NCBI RefSeq assembly: GCF_000003815.2
Contig: NC_049993.1
Coordinates: 16,450,897 to 16,514,896, forward strand
From: Branchiostoma floridae
Taxonomy: Eukaryota; Chordata; Leptocardii; Amphioxiformes; Branchiostomatidae
Direction of reading: 5' to 3'
Length of the DNA: 64,000 nt
Shown: piece by piece, positions 3,807 to 64,000 of the stretch
Layout of the letters: the number at the start of each line of letters is the position of its first letter
Position numbering within the stretch: the first letter of the stretch is position 1
The notes under the pieces: generated by a model
The model's database searches: none
The model's input: the letters and a program-made list of their open reading frames with translations, nothing else
Told to the model about the DNA's origin: nothing
Made by a program: the position numbers and the translations under genes

Positions 3807-5462
3807 CTAACCTTCATCTTGAGTGCTGTACATGCAGTTTGCAGAGTCTGCCGTTGGTTCCGCAGATGTATACAGGGTAGTTGTGGCGGTACTGCTGAGG
3901 TTAGGATCCACGCAGCGCTCCGGATCCATGTCGTTCGAGACGGCAACAGGTTCATGATACAAGTTTCCCACACAGTGGTTTGTAGACTGTTCTTGTGGAA
4001 GTCTGATCTGGTTTTCACCGGAGACAATCTGACGTCCCTGATTCAAGCATGTATACAGGGTAGTTGTGATGGTACTTTTCAGGTTAGAATCCACGCAGCG
4101 CTCCGTGTTATTCGAGACGGCAACAGGTTCATGGTACAAGATTCCTGCAGACTGTTCTTGATCTTGTGGAGGTATGTTCTCATTTTCAGCAGGCACAACC
4201 AGACGTCCGTGATTCAAGCCTTGCGAGGAGGTACCGGTGCGCTGGTGCAGGGGGTCTACTGTAGGTAACGTACACGTGGTCGTGTGTGCAACTGGAGGTC
4301 CGTGGTTCGAAGCTCCTGCGACGGGTCCGTTGTATAAATTGTTTTCAATCATCGAATCTGATGAAACAATTTGTCTCAATGGAATGGAATTGTGATCTAA
4401 TGCCACGCCGTTGACAAGTTCTCGTCGATTGCAGCATAGGTTTTTCTTTCTCACAAGGCGTACGAGGCAGGTAATGCAAAATAAAACTAGGCCAATTTCA
4501 ACCACGAAAATAGTGATGTAAAGAATATAATGTCTTCCACTTGTTTCGTTCTTCGTGTCCGTTGACACAGTGGGAGATGTATTAACGATATACGCACTGG
4601 TCTGGGCAGCACTTGTCCGGATCCTTGCCGAACTATTTGTCTGGTAGTACTGTCCCGTGTTCACCTCCTTCCACACCTGGGCTTGTGTTGTGACATCTGT
4701 TGAGCTTTTGTTGAGAAAAATGTCGTTTACTATGCTCGGTAGTTCGGTTTTGTCTGGTTGGGTCGGTTCACAATCCGTAAGCTGGGCAGACACAGTGGAC
4801 AAATGTCGCTGACAAAGTTGACTCGGACTGTAGCAGACGAAAGTTCCGCTCAGCACAAGAAAACACGCAGAACACGAAGAGCAACAGGCCTGTCGACTAA
4901 GTGTCCATTTACAGCCCTCTAAACACGCCATTTTGTCGATCAGCCAGGAAAGCTCACAGTCACAGTGAAACGGGTTGTCGTTGATTATCACTTTCTTCAT
5001 CAGCGGCCATCCTAGAGCGTGTTTTGAGAACGATGTAAGTTTGTTCCAACTCAAATTTACATGAACCAGCTTCGGCAGATATGCGATGACAGTGTCGAGT
5101 TGTACCTGCTTCAGTCGGTTTTCTTGCAAAGAGAGAAGTTGCAAATCTGGCAAAGTGCGCAGAGATATCCAGGACACGTCTTCGATGGAATTATAGCTCA
5201 GGTCTAAGGAGTACAGATACGGCAGTGACGGAAAGTGCGAGACGTTTTTGATGTTATTGTGAGCGAGTTCAAGTCGATAAGTGCTGGTCGGTATATCACC
5301 CGGCAACGCCACCAGGCCCAGTCTGTTACAGTTGACTAGCGAACGTACACGCTCAGAAAAGACATAATTTCTCTTTTCGACATCACAATGGGCTGGCAGA
5401 CTGCTACATCCTAACAGACAAGATCCAAAGGAAACCAGAAACAGCAAGCCACTTACAGTCAT
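3807..5462 (-). CDS. LRR transmembrane receptor, tandem copy 2
   Basis: Single-exon 551-residue paralog of the gene ending at 344, with the same order: signal peptide, cysteine-bearing cap, about four LRRs, LRR C-terminal cap (NPFHCDCELSWL), Thr/Ser-rich stalk, one membrane helix, tyrosine-bearing tail. The stalk and most of the tail are nearly identical to copy 1. Differences concentrate in the N-terminal cap, in the C-terminal cap around the extra cysteines, and in the membrane helix. The tail has two YHEPV motifs and one TLYTCL. Both copies are open throughout, so both are probably functional. Flanking DNA is duplicated too (2.4-3.2 kb resembles 5.9-6.7 kb), so whole units including the presumed promoter were copied. 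Confidence 0.85.
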   Translation of the reverse strand: MTVSGLLFLVSFGSCLLGCSSLPAHCDVEKRNYVFSERVRSLVNCNRLGLVALPGDIPTSTYRLELAHNNIKNVSHFPSLPYLYSLDLSYNSIEDVSWISLRTLPDLQLLSLQENRLKQVQLDTVIAYLPKLVHVNLSWNKLTSFSKHALGWPLMKKVIINDNPFHCDCELSWLIDKMACLEGCKWTLSRQACCSSCSACFLVLSGTFVCYSPSQLCQRHLSTVSAQLTDCEPTQPDKTELPSIVNDIFLNKSSTDVTTQAQVWKEVNTGQYYQTNSSARIRTSAAQTSAYIVNTSPTVSTDTKNETSGRHYILYITIFVVEIGLVLFCITCLVRLVRKKNLCCNRRELVNGVALDHNSIPLRQIVSSDSMIENNLYNGPVAGASNHGPPVAHTTTCTLPTVDPLHQRTGTSSQGLNHGRLVVPAENENIPPQDQEQSAGILYHEPVAVSNNTERCVDSNLKSTITTTLYTCLNQGRQIVSGENQIRLPQEQSTNHCVGNLYHEPVAVSNDMDPERCVDPNLSSTATTTLYTSAEPTADSANCMYSTQDEG

Positions 5463-7771
5463 GTTTGTCTCAGGAGGGAAGTCTGGTTGTCACCACCTAT
5501 ACTGGTCTGCAATGTCTGCGAGCAAAAGTCACCCCAGCTTGTTTTTTGGTCTCTATTCGAGGCTGCACACCCTCAAGTTTAGCGACCGTATCTTACCGAA
5601 ATATTTTCCAAAAAATGTGGATGGTAAAGAAGTATAGCCCTCTAGCTATAGGAACTGAATTTCGGTTTCTTCAACCAATTTTAGTGCAATTGGTAGGAGG
5701 AAAGTATTTTACGGTAAAAAATGATGTGCAAATTGGGTCTATTCACGTAAAATTGAAACAGCCGATTAAAATTTTGGCATAGAATTAGCTGACATCGTCG
5801 GAAGGAGAAAGCTCGTAGGTATAGCAAAGCCAATCATTGAGAAAACCAAATAGTACAACTGAGATTTTCAATAGCCCGACGCACGAGGCATAGCAGCACC
5901 GCCCACAAGTGTGAACCCTAGCTCAATCTGAGCTACATTTGTACTTGAGAGGCAAATCACTTTCCACGCGGAAGAATACATAGAAATAAGTCTCCGGCCC
6001 AAAATTGATTTTCAGAAAAATACATCACTTCTCAGGCCTTTCGTCTACTTTAGAATTCAATGTTATTTCTCAGCAAATTTTAAGGAATCTGAACTCTTAA
6101 GCGCCCGAAACCATTTCCTCAATTTTTTTTCTCGTGCACTTTCCGGCCTCTGTCGCGGAGGAATAGGCGTTTGTATCTAGATCAGTATCTCTGTTGTGGT
6201 GGGGGAAGATTTATCTGAGCGCATCTTTTTTTCCGTACAACCACCTCAATGACTGACCTGGATACATAAAAAGATAAATCGCTTGATTGTACCAGACAAT
6301 ACTATTACACATCCCTTCTTTTCAGAGAACCAATCTGAAAAGAAAATGAGGTTCCAAGATTGTCTTTCTTATCACAGTCCGTACACGTGGGATACCAGGG
6401 CGTCTGTTTTGTAACTAACCTCTCACACGAAACAGGAACACTGTCCAAAATTTTAAAAACACTGTCCAAAATATTTTAAATGTACCTTTTTTGCACTTTG
6501 AAGATATTATTTGAATTCGACTTTTAACGATCGTGTACCGTTCACGTCTCTTCAGTTGTATACATGTTTGAAAGGAAAAAGAGCAAATAAACATACTATA
6601 GATAGATATATCATTTGAGATATAATGTATGTCAAAAACGATGACCAAAAAGAGTTCAGCCCGATGAATACAGTAGTCTTGGCTTGACGCTTTTAGACCT
6701 CGGAGAAAACAGGGATCTGTCTGTGCGAAGAGGACTAACGCTAGTTCACTTTTATTCGCGGTATAACTTATATCCGTTGCATGTAAAAGCGGTATTTAGG
6801 GATATCAAGTCGATAGTCGATCAACAAAGAAGAAGATGACATGAGACTCAAAATTTGAGAGACCGGTTTCGAAGAAGACTCAACTTCGCCACAAGTCAGA
6901 AGAGAGACATACAATATGCTACGAAAATAACGGGAAAAACTGATCAATTCTATGACGACACTAGTTGGACCGGACAGCGATAGAGAGTTGGTGTCTATGA
7001 AAAACTCGTCTATTTTATGAATTGAAACACAACAAGCTGAACCTGTATGTTATAGACATTAATCATCCCACTATGTTACTCTGCCGGGCCGCAGTGTGTG
7101 CAGCATACGAGCAAGGTGTTATCTGTATCTGTATCTATATAGCCGGTATAACCGCCCTTCGGCGTAACACACCAGCTTTGCCGGCACGCGGCGCGGCAGC
7201 AGCTGGTTATATTACACTGAACGACCCGTCACACCTAACTTTTGCACATCTATCTGCAAGCGTCCATGAAACTATCGAGAGAAGATGCCCCTTCTGTGCT
7301 TGGAGATAACAAATTCCACTCTACGATAGTTCTGGGAAAATACGAATTTTTTAACATATCAATCCTAGGTTGGTAACACTGGTACTTGAAGTCATGGCAG
7401 CTGTTAGATTCTTATCAGTCGGTACGTCCACCAGTTTATTGGTCATTTTGTACATCATGCAAAGTCTGGACATTTTCCTTCTGTCTTCAAGTGATGTCTA
7501 TTGCAAATCTGTTTTCATTTTGGTAACACTAGCATCCCTGGTAGAAAGGAGTCTTTTGCGTATAATGCTTTTTTCACAAAAGACAGAAACTGTTTTTTAA
7601 AATACCAATTTAAGGACTACACAACTTCAGACTGCCACGACGACACTTTTCCATGGGCCAACTGGGTTCCCAGACAAATTACTATCCTAGATACAGGTGA
7701 CGTCATCAAAATTCGAAGCTCGGCAATTGCTATTTTTTTTGCTAAAACAAACACAAAAAAATGACACACAA
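5463..7771. other. LRR copy 2 upstream flank and repeat debris
   Basis: To about 6690 this is the duplicated LRR upstream region. From 6735 to 6820 it resembles one arm of the short inverted-repeat element seen complete at 61699-61917. From 7110 to 7240 there is a GC-rich segment (AGCCGGTATAACCGCC type) that looks like a dispersed repeat; a weak relative sits near 27850. The open frames here look like chance. Confidence 0.45.
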
Positions 7772-9041: not shown

Positions 9042-10650
9042 CTATAAACATTTCATAGGTTTCGTCTCTTCTTCCTTGTAATTTGTGTCGAGGCCTTTCA
9101 TGGGTTTCGTTTCTTCCTCATTTCCATCCAGATCGAATACTCTCTGCGCTTCTCTTTTCGCCCAGCCGGTGACAAAGTTGGGGAGGAGGTTTTCCTCGGC
9201 CTCTACGGCATACTTGTAATGTTCCTCCGCCTTTTCCGAATTTGATTCCCAGCTGTAGAGGATAGCGAGACAGTAGTGCGCCCAGTGAGACCGCTTGTCG
9301 CACGGCGGGGCGAGCTGCAGGTACCGCTGGAACTGCTGGGTGGCGTCCTGTGGGGATAGAACCATGGAGCACTCAGCCGCCAGGTGTATGGCCAGAAAAC
9401 AGTCGGGCTTGTACATCAACGCACTCGTGAACACCGGGACGGCTGAGACGGGGTTGTCGCGGTTTACATTCAAAATCGTGTCCCCGAGAACGCAGTAGAT
9501 GTGGTGAAGATGTTCGTAAAGCGAGTCCAATTTTCTATTCCTCAGGATTAAGTCTACGGCCTTTCGAAGAGCGCGGCTTCGACCATCACCGAACGGCATA
9601 AGCGCCGCCTGGAGGAAGAGACAGGAACTGCTGTCCGGGAAGTCTCCCATGAGTTGCTCCATCCTTTCCTTCTCCAAACCGAGACCTTCTGCGCTGTACA
9701 GAAAGTGGTTATAGCTGCTCGGAGTTAGACGTTCTTGGAGAACAAATCCTTCTACAACCTTGTCCACTCCTGAGACGTTTGTATAGTTACTGTTGGTAAG
9801 TATCTCTCCACCAGATTCCATCAGACTGAAGCCTTTGATGAAATTTCGAGCTGTGGGAGAGTTCTTAAACTGGTGCAGACTGAGTCTCCATAGCCTGAGC
9901 GGACCGGGAGGGACGTCATCTGAGTTAACTCCTGAGGAGGATCTCTTGATGTTGGCGTTTTCTCTTTCGATGGACGTTTTGGATAGCTTTGTCTGATGAA
10001 AGATGGAGAAACGTTGAAAGTGTTATGTATAATTACTTCACAATAATGTTGAATGCAGTTGTCATTATATGATACAATTACCGAAAATCCATCTACTATT
10101 ACTACTTTACACAGTGACATTTTTTTTTAAAGAAAATGTCTGATGAAACCTATTTATTTATAATCTAAAGGTGGTTCCTTCAGTATTTGTCATGTAATTA
10201 GCAGGTCCTGAGTTCGATACCAGGCCATAACATACCAAGGACTAGCCCAATACTGTAGTGATTGCACAAAACTGTGCGGCCCAGGGCTACAGAAAAACGG
10301 AGATGGGCGCCGCCCGATACACTATCTGGGGCTCGGGAAGGACTTTAACTTACCTTTTCAAGAAGTGCCACAAGATGTTGGTACTCCGCTTCCTCCAGCG
10401 CCCGTTTGAAGACGCCGAAGGCCCGGTCTCCTCTGGTCATGATGATGTCCAGCAGTTTCCTGGCCTTGTAGCTCCTCCTCTCGTCAGGGATGGCGGCTAG
10501 GTCCTCCATCATCTCTTCTGTCAGGACGCCCTCTTGGTACAGGTAGGGCGTGACGTAACGGGCTTCCAGGTCACGTGACAGGGGGACGTACTTCTTCCTG
10601 ATGACGTCACGATGATGATCGGACATCGGCCTGTCTCTGACGGCGAACAT
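9042..10650 (-). CDS. CARD-TPR-like protein A
   Basis: Two coding exons, 10354-10650 and 9042-9992, joined in phase 0 at canonical GT-AG sites; about 415 residues. Exon 1 encodes a death-fold CARD: helix-rich, with LTEEMMEDLAAIP, then KARKLLDIIMTRG and AFGVFKRALEE, typical of caspase-9/CRADD-type CARDs. Exon 2 encodes a linker and a helical region with TPR-like repeats (HLAAECSMVLSPQDATQQF, CDKRSHWAHYCLAILYS, KAEEHYKYAVEAEE). The C-terminus has a short duplicated EEETKPMKxL. The start is the first ATG of exon 1; an upstream non-coding exon is possible. It is the first of three tandem paralogs. An adaptor role in death or innate immune signalling is inferred from the CARD. Confidence 0.8.
10195..10340 (+). 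mobile_element. Probable tRNA-derived SINE fragment
   Basis: Contains a B-box-like stretch (GAGTTCGATACC) after an A-box-like start, then a non-tRNA body. It lies inside the intron of CARD gene A. Family not identified. Confidence 0.4.
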
Positions 10651-10868: not shown

Positions 10869-13639
10869 ATGGAGATAAGTATCAATGACAATGAAGTTTA
10901 TTGCATATTCGTGCTCCATTGGGGCTAAATGCAGTCAGTTTTATATAAAACTTTTAATCAAAAGGTAGTAAACGAAAAGTTATACATATACTATAGTTTA
11001 CATGCTTCTTCTCTCTTCTGAAAACATGTGTAGACGAACTTACAGAGATTTTCCAGTATATCGTGATCAGATGATGACATAAGAACATATCTTCCTTCGT
11101 TAGGTGTGCATATTTCTGATCTTCTGATGTGTCGCATGGGAATATGAAAGGTGAAGAAATTCTACCATACATTACATTTAGTACCCCAAAAGTTAAAGGG
11201 AAGAAATACTTCAACAACAGAGCGAAGGTAGAGGAAGGTTAGGCATCTTGGTAGTAATTTACGCCGAATCATACTTACTCAAGCAACTAGATATGATTTT
11301 GGTTTCCACATTTGTTTGGCGTAAAAAGGTGTATAAACAGCGTCAATGTTTCATTGATGATTTTCAAAATGAATTCAATGAAGGGATTTCTTTTTGGGTC
11401 GAATCCGAGACAAAGCTAGTGAGTGCGGCTTTGCTCATTCAGTCATTCGTAACCAATTTTTTATTTGCCGACTGCGGCTTTTGAAAAGAGGGAGAGAGAA
11501 ACTTGTCCAACAGGCACGCACACTGCATTACACACAATGGACTCAAGGATTACCAACATACCCGGGGCCCGCAGGTTGATTTATGCTCAGTTGAGTGTGT
11601 GCCAAAAGAGGTGGATGACTTAACTAACTGTGCAAACAACCTTCATAATGGCGACTTGAAGTACGTAGAAACCGAAACCACAAAAACGCACAAAACCATA
11701 CGCCTAGCTTCGAAATAACTACACAGATGCTTAGTGTGTTTTGAATACGCCGGAAGGCAGTTGTACCGGTTACCTAAACACCCGAGACAACTCATCATCC
11801 ACCACTTCATCTAACGAGTTGTCCCTTCATGAACATAATATTACCGTTAATATCTCAGACAGATTTACACAAACTAACGCGAGTGGAATGGGTTCGTCTG
11901 GTGCCAACAGCGCGGTATGTTTATAGCTGGGACGTACCGAAGGAATTCGAGTACAAGTAATATACTGAAAGAGGCTGGCTTACTAACCTTAATAGTGTCA
12001 ACCCTGGTGACATCTAAACGTTCAGTAGCACTCCTACTCAATGTATTGATGAAGAAACCCGGACGTTTCCCTGTTTTGAATACTAGCTTTCTCCGAGTCC
12101 CCGGTGTACAGAATACGTTCTCAACCCTAAAATACACCGGCGGGACATTCCAGACTCAGCAGACAGGAAGATATACGGTTTTGACGTCAGCCCTTCCGTA
12201 CAATGTCGGAGGTGAAAGGTTACGTGACGTAGTGAAGTAGGGTTGGCGCGTTTTACAAAACTATGTCTGGTCTGAACTTTTTTGCGGCGTTTTGATTTGT
12301 CCTCTTTAGAAATACGTGATGGCGTTTTCATATTGCTGGCACTATTTGAAAGTCTACCAGGCGCACAAAAATAATTGAAAAATAAGACGAAGCCCTACGT
12401 TGATTTGAAGATTGCACACTCATCTTAGGGGAATGGAATTAGAATAGCTGGGAGTGAGACCCATGATCCCGATGGATATAGCGTAGTCGGAATATCATCA
12501 GAAGCAAAACATTTACAGTATGCATAGTAATTTCAACTTGTGATTGCTACGCAGCCGTACACATTTGCAGCAGTCATTATATAGAATTGTATAGATTTTT
12601 TATATCAATTAGTATCATGCAATGTAGTCTTGTGTTGTATACATATAGATGGGGTTTCGATTGTGAGCCTCCACACAAACTACTAGTATGCAGTTCAGAG
12701 TTCTTTGATTCATGTACTCTGTACAAATGAATGCTTTGTAGTGTTTGGTATAGTTACATGTATATATATAATATCGGGTGTATTTTGCAGCCAGTAGGTA
12801 CCCAAAGTGAGGGTAATGAGGCTGTTTAACGTGGTTGAGGCACCTCCTCGAGCACGGGACCCCTGTTTTACGTCCCTCCCGGAAGACGATTTCGTGGACA
12901 GCTTCGTGAGGCTACAGCAATCCGGACGTCCTTGGTTGGTCTCCCATCCAAGCACTGTCCGGACTGCGCGTTGCTTAACTTCCGAGATCGAGGGATCGGG
13001 TGTACCAACGCGCCACGCGGCCGTATAGTGTATGTTCTTTCCTTAAAGGAAAAAGGGTAATAAATACCAAAAAGCAGGCAAATCTACAATCTGACAGTGA
13101 TGATAGCAAGATCGACAGCAGAAGTCAGCACAAGATTGTGTGCAAAGATGTAATGTCCGGAATTCCATACTTACGTATCTAGCTACTATCATATTTCTGA
13201 TCTGTTCGTCGTTGTTTTGATACAATTGTAAGTGTTTTGACGTTGCAACTATACCTTGTCCATGTCTTTTTCTTCTTTGTGTGTTCAACGAAAAAATGCA
13301 TCTAAGATCTAATTGCATTACTTTAAATTGGATGTCTATCGAAAGGGCTTAAACATGATGATGATGATAGAATGACCATAACATAATCTACGTAATGTAA
13401 GTTGGTTCCCACACGAACGTACGTAGTATGCTATATCTATTAAGTATGATATATCATCTATGATCATCTAAATTGTAATCTGAATGGATTTTCCATCATA
13501 AAGTCAAGGGTAACACAAATCCAATTTCGAGCGCAGCGACGTCGCAAACATGCCGCAATGCTGTGAGGTGTCCTCTTTAGAGAACACCATCTGGAGTTTA
13601 GCACCCCTTTAGAGAACACCTTGTGGAGTTTAGCACCCC
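10869..13639. other. Intergenic DNA between CARD genes A and B
   Basis: Holds the 5S-like SINE at 12785-13025 and the end of gene B's 3' repeat. Open frames at 11.2-12.3 kb lack recognisable domains and overlap each other on both strands, so I do not call them genes. Confidence 0.5.
12785..13025 (-). mobile_element. 5S rRNA-derived SINE
   Basis: Read on the minus strand, about 12890-13005 matches the internal part of 5S rRNA: a CCGATC...CTCGGAAGTTAAGCA block, then a CTTGGATGGGAGACC block. Downstream is a body with GGGACGTAAAAC and a repeated GTCCCG. This is the organisation of SINE3-type elements, which carry a 5S-type pol III promoter. It is not a functional 5S gene because the ends and spacing are wrong. 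Confidence 0.7.
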
Positions 13640-13652
13640 TTAAGAGAACACC
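13579..13652. repeat. 32-bp tandem repeat at the end of CARD gene B
   Basis: AGAGAACACC recurs at 13579, 13611 and 13643 (period 32) with GGAGTTTAGCACCCC between. The stop codon of CARD gene B (13640-13642) lies inside this array. Confidence 0.85.
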
Positions 13653-15910
13653 TTCTGTGCCACCTCTTTCGCCCAACCCATCACGGACGTAGGGAGGCGT
13701 TTTTCCTCCGCCTGGACGGCGAGGTTGTAGTGTTCCTCCGCCTTCTCCTGCTGGGCCTGCCGGCTGTAGAGGATGGCCAGGAAGTAGTGCGCCCAGTGGA
13801 CCCGCTTGTCGCACGGCGGGGCGAGCTGCAGGTACCGCCGGAACTGTTCTATCGCGTCGGGCGGGGAGAGAACCATGGAGCACTCTGCCGCCAGGTGCAC
13901 GGCGGTGGGATAGTCCCGCTTGTGCATTAACGCGCTCGTGAAGGCTGGTAAGGCACAGGACGGGCTGTCACGGTACAAATTTAGGAGACTATCTCCCAGA
14001 ACGCAGTAGACGTGGTGAAGGTACTTGTGGAGCGGGTCGTCTTCTCCGTTTTGTACCACGACGTCTGCGACTTTCCTCATCTCCTGTACGCGTGTCTCGT
14101 CGAACGGCAGCAGCGCCCCCTGTAGGAACAGGCAGGTACTGTCAGCAGGGTTGTGATGAAGCTGAGAGGTCATGAGTTCGGCTAACCGCGCCCTGTCCAA
14201 GCCGAGATGGTCAGGGCTGTACAGAAAACGTTCGTAACTTCTTGCAGTGAGACGTTCTTGTAGCATGAACCCTTCCACTATCTTTATCAAGCCCTCCGCG
14301 TCGGTATATCCGCTGTTGTTCAGGATTTCAGCACCCTTCTCCATGAGTCTGCATCCTTGGATGATTTTCTTGGCGGAAGGAGTTTCCCTGTACGGCTGGA
14401 GACAGAGGCGTAGAGACTTCAGCGGTCCTTCCGATACCTCCTCAGAGGCGACCTGTTCGTGGTGCAGTTCACTTTCGACGAGTGGTTTCGGCTGAAACGG
14501 AATAATTATATGTACTGGTTATTCCTCTCTGAAAAAAACAACCAAGCATGAAACTGAATAGGGTAATCAACAAACACACTGCCGCAATTCAGATTAAATC
14601 TGTCTTACTCAACGTGCTACAATTAACACAATTTATGGAAGTCTTCCACAGCTATCTCCAAAGAGGACTCTCCGAAGGATAAAATTTGCAGGACACTGTT
14701 GTCGAGTCAAGCAGGAAATAGTTTCGTCTGTTCTCCTATGGAAACCGAGTGGCCGGGTACATTGAGGAAGTTTGACTTTTACAGACTCTTTAACTAGAGA
14801 CTCTGGTATCGAATTTGTGAACTTAGAACGAGCAATGTTAGATAGGGCCCTATGGAGTGAAATATGTACTAGTAGCCTGGTCCAGACCTCTGGTCGTTTA
14901 TGTGTATGTATGTATGTAATACTATGTAAATCTGCCTTAAATGGGGTCTTTAAACTTTCCTCAATTCTTCTGCGACGAAACGCCACCGAAAGCAATCCTA
15001 ACGACAGCATTCAGTTTTTCTTATTACAAAACAATAACTTTGATACAAATGTGCAAGTCAAACTTACCTCTTCAAGTAGTTCAGCAAGATGTCCATAACC
15101 GGACTCCTCCAGCGCCTGTTTGAAGACGCCGAAGGCCCGGTCTCCTCTGGTCATGATGATGTCCAGCAGTTTCCTGGCCTTGTGGCTCTTTTTCGCTTCA
15201 GGGATGGCGGCGAGATCCTCCATCATCTCTTCTGTCAGGACCTGACAGGGTTTACAGTTGTCGTACGATATCTGTTACTAGATTTCAAAAATCAAGTTGA
15301 ATTTATAGACGATAGAGACGATACGCCAAAAATAGTTACTCAAGCAACTGGACATGGTTTTGACCGTTTCAAAACCATATCCAGTTGCTTGAGTAACTAT
15401 TTTTGGCGTATCTTATTACCTGGATGTCTAACCTACATCGACGATAGAGACGATATTTTCATATTTACGTAAAAGATGTTAATACTAATGACCATACTGA
15501 TTTAAAAATACTAGCTATAGGCACCAAGGAGTCGATGTATATTTCTGTGTTTGCCTTTGAGTTTGTTTCTATTGTTGAAGTTCAGAAGAGATGAAGCAAA
15601 CTTCAGACAACGTCTCTTACGCCTTTCATCTAGAGTAGTAAAGGCCTAGGTGTGCAAGTGAGCCTGATCCAACAGGATGGTGTTTAGGACTGAGTAAGGG
15701 AGTGAGGGTGTCCACTACTCTTCCTAGAGTCACGTGTAACACAACAATGTATAGATAATAGTGATCAAATAACACCAGAAAAATGACATCTCCCACCTTC
15801 TCCTGATACAAGTACGGCAGCACGTACTTGGGGTTGAGGTCACGTGACAGCGGGACGTACTTCTTGCGGATGATGACGCGGTGCCTGTCCGACATGGGGA
15901 CGTCTGCCAT
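13640..15910 (-). CDS. CARD-TPR-like protein B, with an extra intron
   Basis: Three coding exons: 15797-15910, 15068-15241 and 13640-14491, all in phase 0; about 379 residues. The ATG at 15910 has a good context (CCACCATGG). Exons 1 and 2 together make the CARD that is a single exon in genes A and C. The extra intron (15242-15796) splits it after YLYQEK, with donor AAG|GTGGGA and acceptor CAG|GTCCTG, and no residue is lost relative to A or C. Exon 3 encodes the linker and TPR-like region (HLAAECSMVLSPPDAIEQF; HWAHYFLAILYS). The C-terminus ends early, just after AQKVFS, inside a 32-bp tandem repeat. Same inferred CARD-adaptor role as its neighbours. Confidence 0.78.
15242..15796 (-). other. 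Additional intron in the CARD of gene B
   Basis: 555 bases with GT-AG borders. Genes A and C are uninterrupted here. At 15320-15412 the intron contains a near-perfect hairpin with arms of about 40 bases (GATACGCCAAAAATAGTTAC and its complement), built from two opposed copies of the dispersed repeat containing CCAGTTGCTTGAGTAAC. Both borders contain AGGT. Confidence 0.75.
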
Positions 15911-16424: not shown

Positions 16425-16500
16425 TACCGGTAAGCGGCAACAGCCGGGATTCGAACCCTGGACCAGATGCAGGGCTGCTAACAACTGAACTAAACACAGA
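16425..16500 (-). mobile_element. tRNA-like segment, probable SINE head
   Basis: The minus strand shows an A-box-like TAGTTCAGTTGTTAGCA followed by a B-box GGGTTCGAATCCC, spaced as in tRNA genes. A clean acceptor stem cannot be drawn, so I call it a tRNA-derived repeat and not a tRNA gene. Confidence 0.5.
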
Positions 16501-18672: not shown

Positions 18673-20168
18673 TCACGGGGTTGACACCTCTGGAAACACT
18701 TCTTGTGCTTTCTCCTTTGCCCACCCAACTTTGAACGTGGGGAGCAGATTTTTCTCCTTCTCCATGGCAAGTCGGTAGTGTTCCTCCGCCCCATCTGGCT
18801 CGGACTGCCGACTGTAGAGGATGGCCAGGAAGTAGTGCGCCCAGTGGACCCGCTTGTCACACGGTGGGGCGAGCTGTAGGTACCGGTGGAACTGTTCTAT
18901 CGCGTCGGGCGGGGAGAGAACCATGGAGCACTCTGCCGCCAGGTGTACGGCTAAGGCGTAGTCTGGCTTGTACGTCAGAGCGCTGGTGCAGGCCGGTAAG
19001 GCAGGAGAGGGGTCGTCATAGTTCATCTCGAGAATCGTGCCACCCAGCATGCAGTAGACGTGGTGCAGGTACTTGTGAAGAGGGTCCTCCTCTCCTTTCT
19101 TCAGGATGACTTCCACGACCTTCCTCATCGATGTAGCTCGGTTCTCATCTACGGGCAGGGGCGCCGTCTGGAGGAGCAAGCAGGAACTGTAGGCAGGGCT
19201 CTGTTCTTGCTGGCTGGATAAAAGCGTACTCAAGCGTTCCTGATCTAAATTCAGGCGGTCAGAATCGAAGAGAAAGCGCCTAAAATTACGATGATTGAGA
19301 CGCTCTTCAATCATGAACCCCTCAACTATCTTCACCACACCGTCCGGTTCTGTGTACTCGCTGTTGATGAGGATCTCTGCCCCTGACTCCATGGCTTCAC
19401 AACCCTTTATCATCTTCCTGGCAGAAGGGGAACTTTTGTAGGGTTGTAGTTTAAGACGGAGCCACTTTAGAGGGCCGTCAGGAACGTCTTCAGGTGTGAC
19501 CGCTGACTCGGGAACTTCTGTGGTATCTGGTGGTTCCGGTGGTGCAGGCTGTACGGAAACGGAAAGCCATCATTAACCACTTCATGTCTTAAGTACCCCC
19601 CCAAAAAAAACAACAACAACAAGCAAACAATCAAAGTAACAAACATCGTCTTACAGTCCACCTTTGTAATGTTTGCGACCAAACCATTTATCTTTCTATT
19701 TAGCAAAATATTTAGACAGTTAAAGACAAATGTACAGACAGGTGATTGCTGAATTTCGTCCTTTCTTTACTAGTCGATAGTTGTTGTAAACAAAACAGAA
19801 ATTAGACCATTGTGACTAAATGACAAGATTGTTACATGTTGCGTTGATAATTGTATCCAATCAAAAAGAGCTCGTACCTCGTCGAGAAGCTTGGCCAGGA
19901 AAGGGAAACCACCCTCGTCCAATGCCGTCTTAAAGATGTCGAAGGCCTTGTCTCCCCGAGATGGTAACATGTCCAGAAGTAGCCTGGACTTTTTTTTCCT
20001 CATCTCGTCAGGAATGGCGTCCAGCCTCTGTTTCATCTCTTCCGTCAGCACATCCTCCTGGTACAGGTACGGGATCACGTGATTAGGGTGCAGGTCACGT
20101 GACAGGGGGACGTACTTCTTCCTGAGGAGATCCCGATGGCTGTCGGACATCGGCCTGTCTGACATCAT
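18673..20168 (-). CDS. CARD-TPR-like protein C
   Basis: Two coding exons, 19878-20168 and 18673-19548, joined in phase 0; about 388 residues. Exon 1 is a complete CARD (SHRDLLRKKYVPLSRDL, then LTEEMKQRLDAIP, LLLDMLPSRG, AFDIFKTALDE). Exon 2 has a Pro-rich linker (PAPPEPPDTT), the conserved block before the TPR-like region (GPLKWLRLKLQPYKSSPSA), and helical repeats ending in KEKAQEVFPEVSTP. The intron sits in the same place and phase as the shared intron of genes A and B. It is the most diverged of the three in the CARD. Function inferred as for gene A. Confidence 0.8.
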
Positions 20169-32500: not shown

Positions 32501-35500
32501 ACAGGGGCTCTGCAGGGATTTCTGGAACATGCCAAGAGGGTTGAATGGTTGGTTAGAGATAACATGGAAGTATCCAGATCCAATGTCAGCTTACCAGGAT
32601 TATCTTTCACTCGTCATGACAAGGAGACATGGATGTAAACTTGTTCATCACCACATTGATGGGCACAATGAGCAATATTACAACTTTTAATGACTTAAAC
32701 CCAGGGCTGGCCCAAGACAAGCTTTGCTATTTTTCTGGCCAACTCTTTGTTTTATGATGGCCTTAGCTTGTTGTTGTTTTTTCTGTCATTTAAGCTGCCC
32801 AAAACGATCTACTTTCATCAATGTAATGTTCTGAATTTATGATTTTTTTGACGGATGGAGTGAAATTTTTTGTTCGTGCCAACACTCATTCCCATCCCAG
32901 GATAGAGGGACGGGTCCTGGAGATAAGCCTTCAAATTCTTCTACACGTACGACTCGTGCAGTATATTACTCAATAAGCCTGTACAAGTACTTATTTAGTA
33001 GCCTAGAAAAGTAATCCTCATATGACTTCTATTCCTGTGATTTATCTTATTGTTAGAACCATTTGAGTCATTCAATCTTCAGAAGCCATGACGTGACTTC
33101 ACCTTCACCAAATGCTCTAAAAGTAGATAGAAGTTCTAAGCTTATCTTTGAATTGCTGCCATGTCAAAGGTACAGTGTACACTCCCCAATTGTGTGGCTG
33201 TCCCAGTCTTGCTAAATATATAACAGCTACAATGACTTGAGCCCTGAGCATGTAATAAGATCAGCGACCTCGCTGCGGATTCCTATAACGGTAAAATAAC
33301 AAGTACCCATGTTGCCACGACAACCCTGTTGCCATGACAACACAACTTCTGACATCATTGCCGAGACGATGGCAGAATTCCAATGACATTGATATCAGCT
33401 TGTTTTAAGAGTGATTCAGGAGGGTGACTTCACTTACCCTGGGGGGAAACCCAGCTGTCTAGACTTTGTAGTGTACCCTACTGTACACATACATTTTTAT
33501 TTATGATCTTGGTAATTATGCAAGGCATTAGACATGCATTAATTCCTGACCAAGGCCTAGATTAAATCACTTCTAAGTTTTACTGAAAGATGGTGTGGTT
33601 TTGTGTGGTTTAGAAAGAACTGACACATCTTTTCCTCTAGAACTAGTAGAACCTCAAATAAGTGAAACCTGTGCAACTCTATATAAGTCCACCAACTGGT
33701 CTTTTGGTTTCCTTTTGACACGGGTATTAAGATGTCTGTCTGTAGTAACCACCTGTCCCCATAGACCAGATATCATAATAATGGCCCTCTGACTCTGAAT
33801 GGTCCTTGAGTAGTTTTGACTGACCTGTAATAAGACATCCCTGGAAGTTTTAAGTCCTGAATGACAGAAGCAAGAGTCCCTGGGGCCTGGATTTGTGGTC
33901 ACTTATTCCTGATGGCATTCTTGACTGACTTTTCCTCTTAAATATTTCATGTCCGCCCTAAGACTGATGCTGTGGTCTTGTCTGGTGGTTGATGAGCTTG
34001 CCTCTGGACCACAGGTTACAGGTTCTAATCTCAGTCTACCCGCCAGTGTTGTGAGCTTGCTTCTGGACCACAGGTTACAGGTTCTGATCTCAGTCTACCC
34101 GCCAGTGTTGTGAGCTAGCTTCTGGACCACAGGTTACAGGTTCTAATCTCAGTCTAGCCGCCAGTGTTCTGATAAGTGGACATTATCTAATTTTTATACT
34201 TTAAATTTTGGATGGGAGGTCAATCTGTCAGCTGTTGTTTGAGAAGAGCCAGACCTCATCATATTTGCATATCAATGAAGCATGCCATAGCAGTCTTCTT
34301 TAATTAAAATCCTTCCCACACCAGTACATAGGGCAGTAACCATCTCCATTTTTATAGCCCTTGGGCCACACAGATGTGCAAGCACTACAGCAGGTTGCTA
34401 GTTTTAGCCATGCTATAATATAGTACTCAGACTATTTTCTTTCAGCAGTGTGTGACTGACATCAACTTCATGACATGGCTTACAGTTTACACATTTGCAA
34501 TAAAGATATCATGACATTATCATTTTAAATTTTTATTGGCTTGCGTTAATTAATGTTACACATGCAAGTAATACTGAGATACTGAATACAACTAAGTTAC
34601 TTGACTTGAGCAACTGGAAAAGTTTAGTAATATATTTAGTATCATTTTTTTTGGTTCTACAGCATGGCAGACCCAGAAGTGTTTTTAGCCTGACGACAAC
34701 CAAAGTGTCAGAAAACCAGGTTACTCCAAGTCACTGCTCCGCATTAGTCGCACCCTACCTGGCATGACGTCAACGATATACAGGGACTCATTCCTGCAAT
34801 TACTGGGTTTCTTTGGATGTCATTGAAAATAAATGGACCTTCAAGCAAAAAGAATTGAGAAACCTTGAAGCACATTTTTCGGGCACAATTTGCAACAAAC
34901 TTTACGCTTTTGTTTTTAGGCTATACTGGGAATATAATTGAACAGCTGCAACAGACAGCACCTGGAGAGCAGAAAATTGGCTACTAAAGAAAAATGAGAA
35001 TTCTGTCTGAACAATAATCTCTTGTCCAATCCAAATCTATGCCGAAATTTTGCGACTAATTCCTCAATGTAACATTGTAAGACATTATCACAATGTTATA
35101 TATATGAAGTTATCCTGCTGTTCATCAAGCAATGAAGTAGTCAAATGACCGACCAACCCATAATCATCTCTTGGTATACATCAAATTTAAGCATACTTTT
35201 TCTGATTACATGTTCATCTACACAAGTCGGTTAATCTAAAGTTCTGCCAATAATCAGATTTATAGTTATACATCCATGAAGGTTACACATCCAGATAATA
35301 AGATGTGCCAAAAAGCAGTTACGTTTCCGATAAGCATCCACTATATATCCTTCTTCAGTGACATTGACAAAAGAATGGATGCTATATCTGAAGCATTTGA
35401 CCGTTTCCAAAATGATATCCAGTTGCTTGAGTAACTGCTTTTTGGGGAATAATCAGATATAGTTGGTGAAAAATTAGGCAGTCCAGCTGGACAGCACCGG

Positions 35501-39035: not shown

Positions 39036-42000
39036 TTACAGGAGTTTTGGCATTTGCCTCAACTTTCCAAGATCAAGAATGTTTCTTGTTTCTCCACTTC
39101 CCTCCCTCGCACCTCTTCCCCTCGTCTCACGGTCTGTACCCTCTCTGTGTCCTGACGTTTCTGATGAACCTCTGGACACTCTCGAGCCCTCGTCATCTTC
39201 AAACTGTGGAGAAGAAGACTGCCTTCTGGGTCTTCCCTTCCACTTCTCGGGAAAGACGACGATCGGATCTTCTCCCTGCGCCATGTTGTCCCTCTGCCGT
39301 CCACTCCTGCTGCTTGAGCCGTGGCTGGATCCCGAACAACAGCTGCACTCCTTGGAATCGTTTATCGCTCTTCCTTGAGACGCCTCCTCTGATTCTCTCC
39401 TACCTCCTTGGGAATCTCTTGAGGAGTGCTGTTCCTCGTCTAAGTCACTCTCAGAGCTGGAGTAGGATCTCCTGGAGGTGATTTCCTTTGGAGGGCTGAA
39501 CACCTGACTGGTTTCCTCATCCTCTTCCTCAATCAGCCCATACCTATTGAAGAGAAGGAATTCCATCTTTATCAGATCACTTTTCTAAGTCCACACCTCT
39601 GAGAGAATTATGCTTTTGTAGATGTTTTTAGGTTATATATGTCAATGGAAATTAAATGCTTTGTCAGATGCTATCTGTTTGTCTTTACTTAGATTAAATG
39701 CATTATTTTTCAGCAGACAGTCAACAAGACAGTGAGTGTGAGTGAGGTCAGGAGCTTTCATGCTGCTTTGTTAGATATTTTTATGACTGCAACATTGCAG
39801 GAATGAAATTTTATGCTATGTTAGAAGAGACAAAATAATTTCCTTCCCAGGAAGCTCTGGACTTCTTTACCAAAAGGGTAGTTCTATAAAGAAATAACTA
39901 ATAGCTATACAAGAGTACGGTATAAACAAAGAGTGCTATTAGATATTGGCATTACCTATGAAATTGTAAAACATACCGTCTCATGTATTTCCAAGTGGCC
40001 ATCGACATGTTCACTGGTGTCACTTCAAAGTTTGTCCTCCCTCTCATGCCCCTCCCCCTAAACATGCCCCTCAACAGCGATTGGTTGGCAGACATGGATC
40101 TGATTGGTGAGGGAGCCTGGTTGCCATGGTGAGCAGGGGTGAGTGGCAGGTTGGCTAACTGGTCATCAGACAGGTACTTCATGGCGATAGCGTTGGCCTC
40201 AAAGCTGAGATCGGTGCCGGTACCTTCCAGAGCCATCTCCGAGAGCGAGATGTAGTTTATCTTGGGGATGAAGTCTGCACTGGGGTGGGCCGCTGAAGGC
40301 CTGTAGCAAACAAAAACAAAAACAAATGCACTGCTGAATAAGAACAGTATACCCATGGCAGGGCCCAAAGAAGCTCCTAACCTAAAAATGTAGGTATACA
40401 GGAATATTTGGGCACACAAAAAAAGATAAAATAAATGTCAGCAAAACTTACTGCCACTCTTCTGAGCTCTTCAAAGGTTTTGTTATTAGTCTGTGACCAG
40501 AACCTCTGGTCGACAGACTTTTAGTTTTGTCAGGTTTTCGCGCGTTCGCAGCTGTATCTATATGTTCCCATTGTCTGAATTCTATATGGTTTGGCAGGTC
40601 CTCTGTACTGAGGTTGACGATGATGCACGTGATTTTTTTTGCGGTAGGTGGTTTTATTATGGATGTTATAAAAATAGCACCCCTACAATTTGTTCGTCTT
40701 ATGGTGTTTTGGCCCAGATCCTCTGCATGTGGGTCATGATGTAATCGGATATTGTCAAGCAGATGCATGGTTTTATCTGATCGTCAAAGTTAGTCGCGTT
40801 CGCATCTGTATTTGCATGTTCCCGTTGTTGCATACTTACGTTGTTTGGCAGGTCCTCTGTACTGAGGTTGACGATGATGCACGTGGGTTTTTTTGGCGGC
40901 AGGTGGTTTTATTATGGATGTTATAAAAATAACACCCCTACAAAATGTTCGTCTTCCGGTGTATTGGTCCAGATCCCCTGTATATGGGTCATGAGGTAAT
41001 TGATATTGTCAAGCAGATACGTGTTTTTATCTGATCGTCAAAGTTAATTCGCGTTCGCACCTGTAACTGTATGTTCCCGTTGCCGCATACGTACGTTGTT
41101 TGGCAGGTCCTCTGCACTGAGGTTGACGATGATGCACGTTGTTTTTTTTTCGCGGCTGCTGGTTTTATTATGGATGTATAAAAATATCACCCCTACAATT
41201 TGTTCGTCTTACGGTGTTTTGGTCCAGGGCCGCTTTGTGTGAGCCTTGCCAGAATTAGATATTGCAAGCAGATGCGTGGTTTTATCTGATCGTCAAAGTT
41301 ATTCGCGTTCGCATCTGTAACTGTATGTTCCCGTTGTCGCATAAGTACGTTGTTTGGCAAGTCCTCTGCACTGAGGTTGACGATGATGCACGTTGTTTTT
41401 TTTCGCGGCAGTTGGTTTTATTATGGATGTATAAAAATATCACCCCTACAGCTTGTTCGTCTTGCGCGTACGGTGTTTTGGTCCAGGGCCGCTTTGACAG
41501 TTGTTCACCTTTCTCGAAATATTTTGGATTATGATTTTACCATACACACAAGTTGAAAGTTGTTCACCTTGCTCGAAATATGTGAACATCTGTGACCAGC
41601 TGTGACCAGCTGTGACCAGCTGTTCATGTTGTCAACGGCTGCGACCAGCTGGTCATGATATGTTTGACAACTTCGATCTACTTTGAATATGACAGTATCA
41701 CCTAATTTTATGTAGCTGCGGGCCAATGGCCATTTACGTTTTTAAGGAACATGGTTGGTACTTTTATTATGATAATGCTGTCTTCATATATACTTGTACT
41801 TTCAGCCTCTTGTTATGGTTGTAATAATTTCAGAAATCCAAGTTTGCCAAGACTAGCCTAAATAGACAAAGCTGGGTGAACGCACTACACGATGAAGAGT
41901 GTAAGCCATATTAGAAATTATAAAATTACATCAAGGTCCTCCTTCCGTGCTTCATACTTATTACGTCCATAACAGAAACATGTTAGGACTTAGTGCGTTT

Positions 42001-48000: not shown

Positions 48001-51000
48001 AGGAAAAGAATCATCATAAATGTAACTACTCACTCTATGGGGTCCATATCCTTCAGTGCCTGCTGGAAGAGAGCAAAATTCTGCCCGTCCTCGGCAGGCA
48101 CCAACTCCAGGTGCAACGGACGCTTGTCCATAGTCTCTGCATCCTGCATCGCACATTTCAAACATTCATCAGAAATTAGATATACCAAAGAGAAGCAAGG
48201 TCATTGATTCAATGCTAGAAAATATCTAGACTCCAAAAGTTTATACAACAATGATTACACCCAGGAGTGACAGGATAAAATGACGTGACAAAATTAACAT
48301 TGCATCATTTAGCAGAATGTTGCTCTGTGACATTGCATAAAACTTCCACATTATTACTTGGAAACATGTTCCCACACAACTAATTCTACATTGCAATAAA
48401 TCTGTGATGAACAGAAACGTCACCTTCAAAACATGAAGTGTTTCGAAGCAGTTGTGGAGTTGAAAGTTCATGACCCCGTCTTTGGTCCTGCAGTCGTAGA
48501 ACTCAGGCTGGGAGTGAGTGGGGGAGTACAGCACGACCAGGAACCCCTGCATGGGGGTGTACACTCTGTACAGGGAGCAGGGGGGTACGTTATTGGTATG
48601 GGAGTGAGTGGGGGAGTACAGCACGACCAGGAACCCCTGCATGGGGGTGTACACTCTGTACAGGGGACAGGGGGGTACGTTATTGGTATGGGAGTGAGTG
48701 GGGGAGTACAGCACGACCAGGAACCCCTGCATGGGGGTGTACACTCTGTACAGGGGGCAGGGGGGTACGTTATTGGGCTGGGTGCAATCTTGACAAAAAT
48801 ATTAATACATGACTCAGTAAGGGTTAGAGAATACTAGTACTGTACATGTTACAAGGTCTACCGTAGTGCTATAATTATACATGTACTAGAATGTCATGAC
48901 CGACAATTTCGATAACTTAAGGTATAAGTGAACCTCTTCAAGTCAATGGAAGCAAAAAAAAATGCAATTATTGGGTACAAAGTCACAACCACAAATAAAA
49001 TGTATTCCTTGGGCTTAGGTCACATTTCCAAACCGGACCCCGGCCGGGATGTTTGCGGAAACGAAAAGTAAAAGTGTTGACCAAGGAATATATACAAATT
49101 ATGGCAATGACTAATATTGTTTACGTTTTGTGTGTTTTGTTGCCTTTTATACCACATTTTTCGTTTCCGAAAGCTACCCGGCCGGGCCCCGGGTTGGGAA
49201 TTGTGACCTGGGCCTTAGGCAGTACTAAGGACCTTGTCGGAATGGCCCATATCCTTTTTTAAGTATCAGAAGATTTACTATATAATGAACACAAAGCCAC
49301 CCAAACTGTCTCAGCATCACTGAAATACTCAGCAAGTGAGTGTAAGTTGACCTATTACCTGTCCTGTATGTTGGTGTTGTACATGTATCGGAGACAGCAG
49401 GCCCAGATATGCGGACTGTGGATGTGGACTGGACCACAAACCCAGCTGAAAACAAGTTACACATCAATATCTCAGTAGATAATGCACATGGTACATTTGC
49501 ATGGTACATAATGGCTAGTTGGGTAGATAAATAAATTGTATAGCGCTTATCACTTAAAAAACAAACCTACTCAGTGTCACTGACGAAAGATAGTGGATGC
49601 TACCTGAAATGTCTGACCATTTCCAAAATCATATCTAGTTGTTTGAATGACTTCTACTTGGCATATCTTATTACCTGGGTGCCTAACCTTCATGGACTTA
49701 TCACTATCAGTCTAACAAAATGCAGAGTCCTGACTTACATGCCGACCAATGGGAGGCTGTATATCTTAGGGTCAGACTCCAGGAGGAGGAGCAGCTTCCT
49801 GGTCTGGTCCATGGTCAGGAACCTGGGGAGAGGGACACACAGAAATATAATTACACAGTGGGCACAAAGATTTTGATCACAAAGATAGAGGTATGATAGT
49901 CATAGCTGCAGGTAACAGATGCATCTATAGGGAAGGGTAATAGAATCTGTTATGTTGGTTAGCATCATTCCTCTTCAGGTTGAATTACTGCTTCTGTTAT
50001 TGTGATAGCTCAGATGGATTGCATGATAAAGTTCAGAGATAGTTGACAGTTACTCCAGAAACTGGATAGTATTTAAATTATATTTTTCTAAATTTTACCC
50101 GAATGTTTAAGTAGCTGATAGTGTTCCCTTGCATGTTTCATTACCTGGATATCTTACCGACAATTTTCTGATGATATGTGCTATGCAATGACTGAGATTC
50201 CTCAAGGAACTTAATTACCTTCAAGATAAATATAATTATCTTCAAGAAAAAGATGGATTTATTAGAGCTTATTTGAAAAGGTACTGTTTTAGGTAGCCTG
50301 TGTTTATACAATTTCTATCTGGCTGGGGTTAACTGTAGGGCCGGCCGCTAGGGGCGCGATTTCAGTCAGGCTACTGTTTCAGGTATTTACCCCGACTTTG
50401 GCGCCCCCTGCACCTCGCTGAGGTTGAGCGGCCCGGCCAGGTTACGAGCCAGCGCCGTCGGGATGATGGGCACGGGGGTGACGGGGGTGGCCTCGAAACC
50501 TGTTGCCATGGAGACGGCCGACAGGTGGATGTCAAAGGTCATGGCCTCCCCCTCGTCCTGTACGTAGATGTGAGCCTGAAGAGCCAGGGAGTTGGAGACG
50601 TCCACAGGGTCCTTAGTACAGCAGTGGTGGTGCAGGGACTGGGGGAGAGAGGAAATACTATTCACAGAGCGACAATGCCAGTAACTACAGTCAAACATGT
50701 ACACTACAAGTGACCTCCTCTACAAAAAGACAGTTATCATTTTGGTTTTATGTAATTTTACCATGGATACAGAAAATCTGCCTACTTCACCCACAGCCAT
50801 AATTGTCTGCACAGTTTTACCATTGTGTCATGACACAGAAGAATGTCAGACTCTGCACATTTTTTTTCCAAAAAGGAGAACTCTTACCCAGCAGAGCTTA
50901 TACTCTGACAAACATAGAATTCTGATTGACCAGGGATGTTACTAGGTCACATGCAGCCAGTCTTCAACTTCTCTGACACTATCTTCTCTAGCACACCATC

Positions 51001-57867: not shown

Positions 57868-58130
57868 CAGTGTCACTGACGAAGGATAGTGGATTCTATC
57901 CGAAACGTCCGACCGTTTCCAAAACCATATCCAGTTGCTTGAGTAACTACTTTTTGGCGTATACATACATATATATAGTAACACTTGTCAGTGAACAGTA
58001 GTAATTATCCCTTTCCTCCATCCGTTTCCAAAACCATATCCAGTTGCTTGAGTAACTACTTTTTGGCGTATACATACATATATATAGTAACACTTGTCAG
58101 TGAACAGTAGTAATTATCCCTTTCCTCCAT
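57868..58130 (+). repeat. PLE-like repeat and 109-bp duplication by CMPK1
   Basis: A dispersed repeat starts near 57868 (GTCACTGACGAAGG...CGAAACGTC...CCAGTTGCTTGAGTAAC). Units at 57913-58021 and 58022-58130 then match almost exactly, so its 3' half plus the adjoining CMPK1 flank was tandemly duplicated. Confidence 0.85.
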
Positions 58131-62182: not shown

Positions 62183-64000
62183 TGACCAACAACACCAGAC
62201 ATTTTAATAGAAAATAACAGTAAGAAAATCACTTAGTAATACGTTGATGATGACATTCTGTGCTTCTGTTCTTCTGTCGTGTACTCAGCCATTGTGTCAA
62301 GAACAATTTATCATACAGGTGTGTGCACTTTGGGATGGTAAAATGAATGACTATGTTGGGTTAATAGTGCAGGTGTTTAGAGGGTAAAGCTTTCAGGTAG
62401 AATGTCCATCATCATTTATCACTCAGAGATTAGTACTTAGTGTAAGGATGATGGGGATTCAATGGTTTTGGTAGGGGCTTGATATGTGTCATATATGTTT
62501 ATGTGTAATTCTGCCTTTCTTTTTTCTGTTGTTCTGAAACCTTTTGAAAATACATTCCTTGATAATGTAGTGATATGTGGCAGATATTTCAACATGTTTG
62601 TGCTACAGCTTCAGAATTTTTAGGCCAGCCATATACAAGCAAGCACAACAACATTATGACCATGCTCATATGTTGTTCCACTCCATCTTGCATTCAACTT
62701 CATTGCAGTAAGAATTGGTACTGCTTTTCCTTTTATATTCCATCTTTTAAGGAAAATGGCTTACTTGGAAGAATGTATTATCATGCTAGTAAGGATGAGT
62801 ATTGTGAACATCTCAGTGCAATTTGTATTATTTTCCCAGAAATATTTTGTAGGGCAGATCTTCCAATAGTTTTGTGTGACTTTGTTCCCCTGGTGCAATT
62901 ATTTAGTGAAAAGGGTAGGGCTGATTTAGCTGTGGAAGCTAAGATATTTATCAAACAGCTGTTTTTCACTATCACAACACTGCCTCATATGATTCAGATA
63001 ATTCTAATGACCCATTCAACTTCTGGCTAGCAATACTCAGAAGATTTAATGTTCAGCCTACTACAAATGTAAATGTGACCCTCTTGCATCAAATTTGCAT
63101 TAGTTATGGGCAGCAGGGACAAGGTAAACATGTTTATGTTTGTTAATGATTATAACATACTCTCTCTTGGTTGGATTTGTGCAGAAGTAATCGTCTGTGC
63201 TGAGAAGCCGTGAAAGAAGTAATTATTGAATTTCTATCTTCAGAGCTTTGAACCAGTAACAAATTTGGTAAGAATCAACGGTAAGACTGTAAAAAATTAT
63301 GAGTTTCTGGTACAGTTCATTTGCAGATAAATTTGACTTTCAGCTTATTTGTGAGGACAAATAAAATCTCATTACAAAAATAAAAAAATGTGCTTTGCAG
63401 AATCTTTTTTCGTTGTGTTTTGAATTATACAATTCACAATGATTTATACTAGCTGATATTTTGAATACTTGCTAGAAAACATTTTCACAAATATTTGTCA
63501 CAGGATATTTTGTTTTCTCACGTTTACAAGAATTGAACATGTGGGTGAGGAAAGTTACTGATTATGACACGTCGATGAAGGTTAGACATCCAAGTAATAA
63601 GATACACCAACAAGAAGTCACTCAAGCAACTGGATATGATTTTGGAAACGGTCAGACGTTTTAGATCATCAACCACCTTTGATCAGTGACACTGAGCAGA
63701 CCTGTTGTAGAATAGGTAATTAAATGTAAACCCAAACTACCTGCAAATCGATATGTGAAGGAGATGAAGAAAAAATTTAGATAGTCCAATTGGAAACAAA
63801 ATTCCAAACTGTCCAGTTGCTTGAGTAACTGGTATTTGGTGTATGATCCTACAATACTACCTGGATGTCTAACATTCATCTACGTATACATGAGTGTATT
63901 CGTTAGGCCTAGGAAAAAAAATGTTGTGTTTCCTGTTTCAGTCCTGAAAAAATTAGGGTCGGTAGGTAGGGGATATCTTTTTTTTTTTTTGTCATTTTTT
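62183..64000 (+). other. CMPK1 3' UTR and downstream repeats
   Basis: AT-rich, with AATAAA at about 63360-63365 as a candidate poly(A) signal, giving a 3' UTR of about 1.2 kb. At 63565-63700 (reverse) and 63740-63885 (forward) are two copies of the PLE-like repeat (CCAGTTGCTTGAGTAAC; ATGTCTAAC). The frame at 62575-63030 has no recognisable domain. Confidence 0.5.

Follow-up and report, generated by a model that had tools for sequence, protein, structure and literature searches.

A predicted gene-specific intron in the CARD of one of three tandem Branchiostoma floridae genes, with a foldback element and a LINE relic in its interior

The interrupted CARD of gene B

Three tandem genes, here called A, B and C, lie on the minus strand of C15 in the genome of Branchiostoma floridae, and each consists of a CARD followed by a TPR-like exon. 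The CARD is broken by an insertion in B alone, and the locus therefore raises the question of whether B has gained an intron or its neighbours have lost one. It also raises the question of whether the hairpin repeat found inside this insertion created it, as was proposed in the first-pass annotation of this DNA. The stretch analysed (C15:16450897-16514896, 64 kb, the window in what follows) belongs to a genome of 513 Mb in 431 contigs.

The 91-residue CARD is encoded without a break in gene A (10354..10626, minus strand) and in gene C (19878..20150, minus strand), as found by sequence comparison, and the alignment of the three genes is free of gaps. In gene B the domain is shared between an exon at 15797..15910 (minus strand), with a presumed start codon at 15910 and ending in YLYQEK, and an exon at 15068..15241 (minus strand), which begins with VLTEEM. 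The TPR-like exon of B is an open frame at 13640..14491 (minus strand). The CARD was recognised by Pfam in all three genes (E-values of 1.9e-17 for A, 1.7e-19 for the spliced protein of B and 5.8e-16 for C), the spliced B having the top score of the three. TPR models matched A and B, the two genes scanned, below the family cut-offs (best value for B, 0.0043). The closest solved relative of the CARD is RAIDD (5.6e-07), and its alignment (YLYQEG/ILTE) shows that the interruption of B falls where the conserved YLYQE stretch ends.

The insertion occupies 15242..15796 on the minus strand (555 nt) and separates the codons of K33 and V34 in phase 0 (K/V). With a slash marking each border, the junctions read CAG GAG AAG / GTGGGAGATG ... 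CCTGTCAG / GTC CTG ACA GAA GAG, that is AAG/GTGGGA on the donor side and CTGTCAG/GTC on the acceptor side, with AGGT present at both. The first-pass annotation, which had placed a 555-base GT-AG intron between QEK and VLTEEM of B only and had pointed to the AGGT of the two borders (AAG/GT, CAG/GT), was correct on both counts, coordinates included. The donor is the top GT site in 15925-15242 (score of 8.16, runner-up 6.90) according to a consensus scoring matrix. The acceptor is weak, with 10 pyrimidines in 20 positions; the introns between CARD and TPR exons have 15 (A), 13 (B) and 13 (C). The insertion thus has GT-AG borders, a consensus donor and a preserved frame, together with a weak acceptor tract, and is predicted from its sequence to be a U2 spliceosomal intron that would be spliced in vivo. 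A candidate branch site, TAGTAAC, was noticed by eye at 15280-15274. An inverted repeat, CTGTCAG/GTCCTGACAG, spans the acceptor at 15232-15248.

Foldback element, LINE relic and intron ends

The intron contains a dispersed foldback element of 124 nt (15320..15443, plus strand), delimited by alignment of its copies and composed of a left arm, a 5-nt spacer, a right arm and a tail of ~31 nt. The arms (15320-15363 and 15369-15412) are 44 nt each and 98% complementary, which bears out the earlier description of two opposed copies of a dispersed repeat forming a hairpin. Allowing up to 3 mismatches, 10 occurrences of the hairpin's 19-nt core were counted in the window, where 0.01 would be expected. 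The element is flanked by a target site duplication, the direct repeat GACGATAGAGACGATA, at 15308..15323 and 15440..15455 (plus strand), each copy overlapping the element by 4 nt. This 16-nt repeat is longer than any found in 2000 shuffles of the intron (maximum 13).

A genome search with the whole intron returned 85 matches, 40 of 2018 first-look candidates being scored, and among the scored matches all but the intron's own full-length match fell within query bases 59-203. Twenty-eight copies of the element, that of the intron included, were taken with their flanks from the best-scoring matches. All 28 are bordered by direct repeats (7-16 nt, median 13; at least 9 nt in 26 of them). In a control in which flanks were paired across different copies, the repeats were mostly of 4-5 nt and never exceeded 10 in 5378 pairings. 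The tail end agrees within 1 nt in every copy, the arm side begins at element position 1-9, and the letters AGGT appear in only one of the 28 flanking repeats. Dispersed copies with the same ends, inverted arms and target site duplications characterise a mobile foldback, MITE-like element. Since all the copies examined have target duplications, and that of B measures 16 nt, the element entered an intron of ~423 nt that already existed. The hairpin hence looks like a later passenger of the B intron and not like its maker.

Relatives of arm and tail lie at about ten places in the 64-kb window, so that the presence of one inside an intron needs no special reason. Longer arm-and-tail relatives (up to ~145 nt) were observed at 49572-49716, 63557-63694, 57868-57962 and 35356-35445, the first two of which match the whole of a hand-made element consensus or nearly so. 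An 18-mer of the repeat was met in 9 viral contigs, with uninformative matches of 16-34 nt, and the letters of the repeat core were not found in the literature searched.

The first-pass annotation had proposed that an AGGT target duplication by an inserted element of introner type would account for both splice sites. On this reading the hairpin element would have inserted into AAGGTC, duplicated AGGT and supplied or recruited both splice sites. The AGGT of the two borders and the dispersed hairpin element between them agree with this proposal, but the element stops short of both splice sites (by 78 nt on the acceptor side and 353 nt on the donor side), its 16-nt duplication is internal to the intron and its copies have repeats of about 13 nt. 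AGGT on both sides is, moreover, the ordinary splice consensus: the available text of PMC3443670 gives AG/GT and AG/G as the consensus in many organisms, for which reason such borders do not discriminate introners. The same text reports for Drosophila that direct repeats of at least 5 bp border gained introns in 25% of cases and conserved ones in 26%. In PMC9860276, as far as its accessible part goes, introners were sought by similarity reaching near both splice sites, and secondary insertions in pre-existing introns were filtered out. The intron of B resembles the introners of that paper in being an apparently new coding-exon intron of an aquatic animal, with AGGT borders and a foldback element inside. 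Unlike them it is repeated in its interior only, which puts it in the secondary-insertion class. The search for introns with the same hairpin, suggested earlier as a check, gave a full-length match to the intron itself only (40 of 2018 candidates scored), and no other intron was found to resemble it up to the vicinity of both splice sites. Neither the boundaries of the element nor its target duplication form the splice sites. As an introner the hairpin is ruled out by its own target duplications together with intron ends for which the genome search returned no match but themselves, and an origin of this kind deserves next to no credence. The locus illustrates a trap, in that a mobile hairpin between AGGT borders mimics an introner while its target duplications reveal a passenger. 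No introner paper on amphioxus was found in the literature searched, the one co-mention of the two being unrelated to judge by its abstract.

Between the foldback element and the donor lies a LINE relic (15456..15692, minus strand, which is the sense of gene B), formed by the end of a reverse-transcriptase ORF and the start of the 3' region. Its best part, 15579-15660, recurs at 8 other genome places with 79-84% identity. These places and the intron segment match the ORF end of a LINE with at least 150 scored matches among 856 first-look candidates, and some of the matches sit in frames of ~1000 codons. One LINE frame that was fetched has an RVT_1 domain (7.1e-19), and its ORF, ending in LERIQKRACRIILG...LCLKFARTLLNSE, finishes with the segment seen in the relic. 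The relic resembles this C-terminal segment but is broken and short, extending over ~15456-15692 with large gaps. The LINE is putatively CR1/jockey-like. Aligned as protein with the ORF bearing the reverse transcriptase domain, the relic scored 79, whereas 100 shuffles reached 53 at most, which supports its identity as a LINE fragment. Its DNA compared with 5 fetched LINE copies scored 64.5-71, hardly above the highest shuffles (56-70). A Pfam scan of the 77-residue C-terminal segment of the LINE gave no family.

No genome relative was found for the two ends of the intron, namely its 5' end (15693..15796, minus strand) and its 3' end with the acceptor (15242..15307, minus strand). With a cut-off of E 1 and very common words skipped, a genome search returned no matches for 15690-15796 (107 nt) and 15242-15322 (81 nt) but these segments themselves. 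A source was equally sought in the 100 kb flanking the window at each end, which yielded only matches of 15-29 nt (best E 0.02). As no element was found that reaches either splice site, the founding event is not readable; whichever route was taken (repair filler, an old transposon duplicating AGGT, or some other), its trace has been lost.

Gain, loss and the exchange between A and B

Queried with the CARD of A (E up to 0.1), the complete genome gave 69 matches, of which 61, A and C among them, pass residues 33/34 unbroken. Two more are the halves of B itself, and the remaining 6 are weak (E 0.008-0.09) and start at residue 28 or later. Twenty of the better rows among the 65 other than A, B and C were fetched, and all 20 are unbroken at the point of the B intron. 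AG/GT is absent from the boundary in these 20 relatives and in A and C (0/22). The AAG codon that precedes the intron in B is equally missing from A, C and the 20 relatives, 14 of the 20 having a glycine codon there. In the CARD tree A, B and C form one group (support 89/92).

Other CARD genes serve as the outgroup for this intron, given that no CARD was recognised upstream of the TPR relatives examined. A genome search with the TPR-like exon matched 47 rows of its family, many of them on C10, C2 and C14, and in 5/5 places examined (on C15, C4 and C10) the ~3.5-4 kb upstream contained no recognisable CARD. For the three nearest TPR relatives on C15 (among L093-L100) an upstream exon of another kind was seen, FSANGFWGGVTLKITDSRIAAG... 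or close to it, and no CARD was found. The joining of CARD to TPR may therefore be special to A, B and C. No additional CARD or TPR exons of this family were detected in the 100-kb flanks of the window (E 0.01).

Judged by the paralogues of one genome, B has an intron within an exon that is unbroken elsewhere, as expected of a new intron, and its gain in B is likely from the sequences compared. The gain put forward in the first-pass annotation is thus supported, on evidence other than that offered at the time. Sharing of the intron by outgroup CARD-TPR genes had been named beforehand as a sign of loss in A and C; the intron is absent from all 20 fetched CARD relatives. The affinity then invoked, namely that the second CARD half of B is nearer to A than to C, is real, and a weak argument, because the closeness rests on an exchanged segment after the intron and the TPR tree leaves the order of the three genes unresolved.

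After the intron A and B are identical at 152/174 nt, and before it at 70/99 (Fisher 0.0011). In that first half the identities over 99 nt are 70 for A-B, 77 for A-C and 77 for B-C, so the affinity with A does not extend to it. By NG86 the dS between A and B is ~0.25 in the CARD part that follows the intron, versus 1.17 in the part that precedes it and 1.35 in the TPR exon; values above 1 are near saturation, and a YN00 estimate was obtained for one of the three TPR pairs. In the TPR exon B shares more sites with C (144) than with A (114), and the TPR tree rooted with 3 outgroup relatives does not resolve the order of A, B and C. The whole-CARD tree joins A and B (93/86), and includes the exchanged half. 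By these comparisons part of the second CARD half has been exchanged between A and B. In a three-gene site test the A-B similarity breaks between -2 and +2 of the junction (0/20000 permutations). When the mismatches between A and B are fitted with a single-tract model, the favoured start is +58 (66 identical bases), and starts at 0 and +1 are no more than 2 lnL units away. It is then suggestive, as the site test has it, that the edge of the tract falls exactly at the intron, even though the single-tract model prefers +58; neither method extends the tract across the intron. An intron that blocks conversion would yield a break at the junction, and this suggests, and no more, that the intron predates the exchange. 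A tract of at most ~135 nt would fit the allelic non-crossover tracts of B. floridae, which are short and mostly under 200 bp according to the available part of PMC12500494.

The history that we favour, and consider probable as a whole, begins with a single gain, on the B lineage, of a U2 GT-AG intron that separated codon K33 from codon V34. The intron would not be young, since a LINE 3' fragment has decayed within it. The mobile foldback element would have landed later than the LINE, 78 nt before the acceptor; its arrival, with duplication of ~13-16 nt of target, would have enlarged the intron from ~423 to 555 nt. Gene conversion between A and B would have made the sequence after the intron alike, without crossing the intron.

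Other readings of the same data have to be weighed against this one. The intron might be ancestral to the A-B-C family, or to CARD genes, and have been lost precisely from A and C, a process for which the accessible text of PMC3443670 gives accepted mechanisms and which the unsettled order of the three genes in the TPR tree accommodates. This is unlikely in view of the unbroken relatives and of the AAG codon confined to B: a single gain in B explains A, C and the relatives, whereas an ancestral intron needs at least one gain and then one or two exact losses. A truncated LINE copy might instead have been inserted in the exon and become spliced, and the relic does run in the sense direction of B; besides, one of two alignments to the emptied intron ran on into the tail (L084). 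Yet LINE similarity was detected neither in the 104 nt that follow the donor nor in the 82 nt that lead up to the acceptor (0/8 loci above shuffles in each case), and the CATCAT tail of the fetched LINE copies was not seen in the intron, which makes such a founding quite unlikely.

A further possibility is the repair of one double-strand break, in which the second CARD half of A was copied into B and filler on the other side became the intron; if true, gain of the intron and gene conversion would both stem from a single event. In its favour, the site test finds the A-B similarity changing no more than 2 nt from the junction, and dS falls across it from 1.17 to 0.25. We hold it improbable all the same, for the single-tract model permits a start at +58, no source of filler was seen in the genome or in the 100-kb flanks of the window, and an intron merely blocking later conversion gives an identical pattern. 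It could also be argued that the insertion destroyed B, leaving a pseudogene and not an intron, as the acceptor is weak, the splicing is a prediction and reading in frame through the insertion meets a stop inside it. The CARD and TPR exons of B are open, however, and in the TPR exon dN is below dS (0.32/1.35 versus A and 0.27/1.13 versus C). This and the exact in-frame GT-AG borders, with a spliced product that gives the top CARD score of the family, render a dead gene very improbable. Tandem duplication of an exon was tried as a source of the intron and rejected, as no exon-like copy occurs in it (best match of 12 nt, inverted, E 0.07; others at E of 0.25 or more).

Parallels in amphioxus and other features of the window

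Copy-specific introns have already been described in amphioxus, and B is a good, ordinary case of intron gain. In the available text of PMC3096672, on amphioxus amylase, 5/14 intron positions occur only in AmyC of B. floridae, and for the globins of PMC3087553, again from the part available, intron gain was preferred by the authors over repeated loss. As in B, the introns are present there in one or some paralogues only. The globin text also suggests 'mirage' duplications of intron/exon borders, whereas the B intron has no exon-like copy and only short, chance-level exon matches, the longest exact one being 12 nt and inverted. The accessible portion of PMC5802833 refers to a GDF8/11 paper for an intron gain in PRHOXNB containing the MITE LanceletTn-2. 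The amphioxus MITEs of that text are similar to the element of B in being short, built as arm-loop-arm, present in many copies, accompanied by target duplications and located inside a gained intron. No CARD-TPR case was found in the accessible part of PMC2575513. A gain with unbroken close relatives in the same cluster is of value in that comparison with other amphioxus species could give its age and help in the search for its origin.

The window contains several other features. A 5S rRNA-like stretch at 12909-13028 (minus strand) covers the full model length with only 47.5 bits, and is perhaps a 5S-derived SINE instead of a gene. Upstream of B, letters resembling a tRNA B-box (GGTTCGAATCC, 16443-16457, minus strand) may belong to a tRNA-derived SINE; ARAGORN found no tRNA in the window. 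At 344-2023 and 3807-5489 on the minus strand lie two open frames of ~560 codons, in tandem and similar to each other, which are leucine-rich-repeat receptor-like by eye. In addition there are two tandem arrays, one at 40541-41463 with 3.6 copies of a 255-nt unit and another at 48509-48776 with 3 copies of a 90-nt unit, 98% alike and open in several frames.
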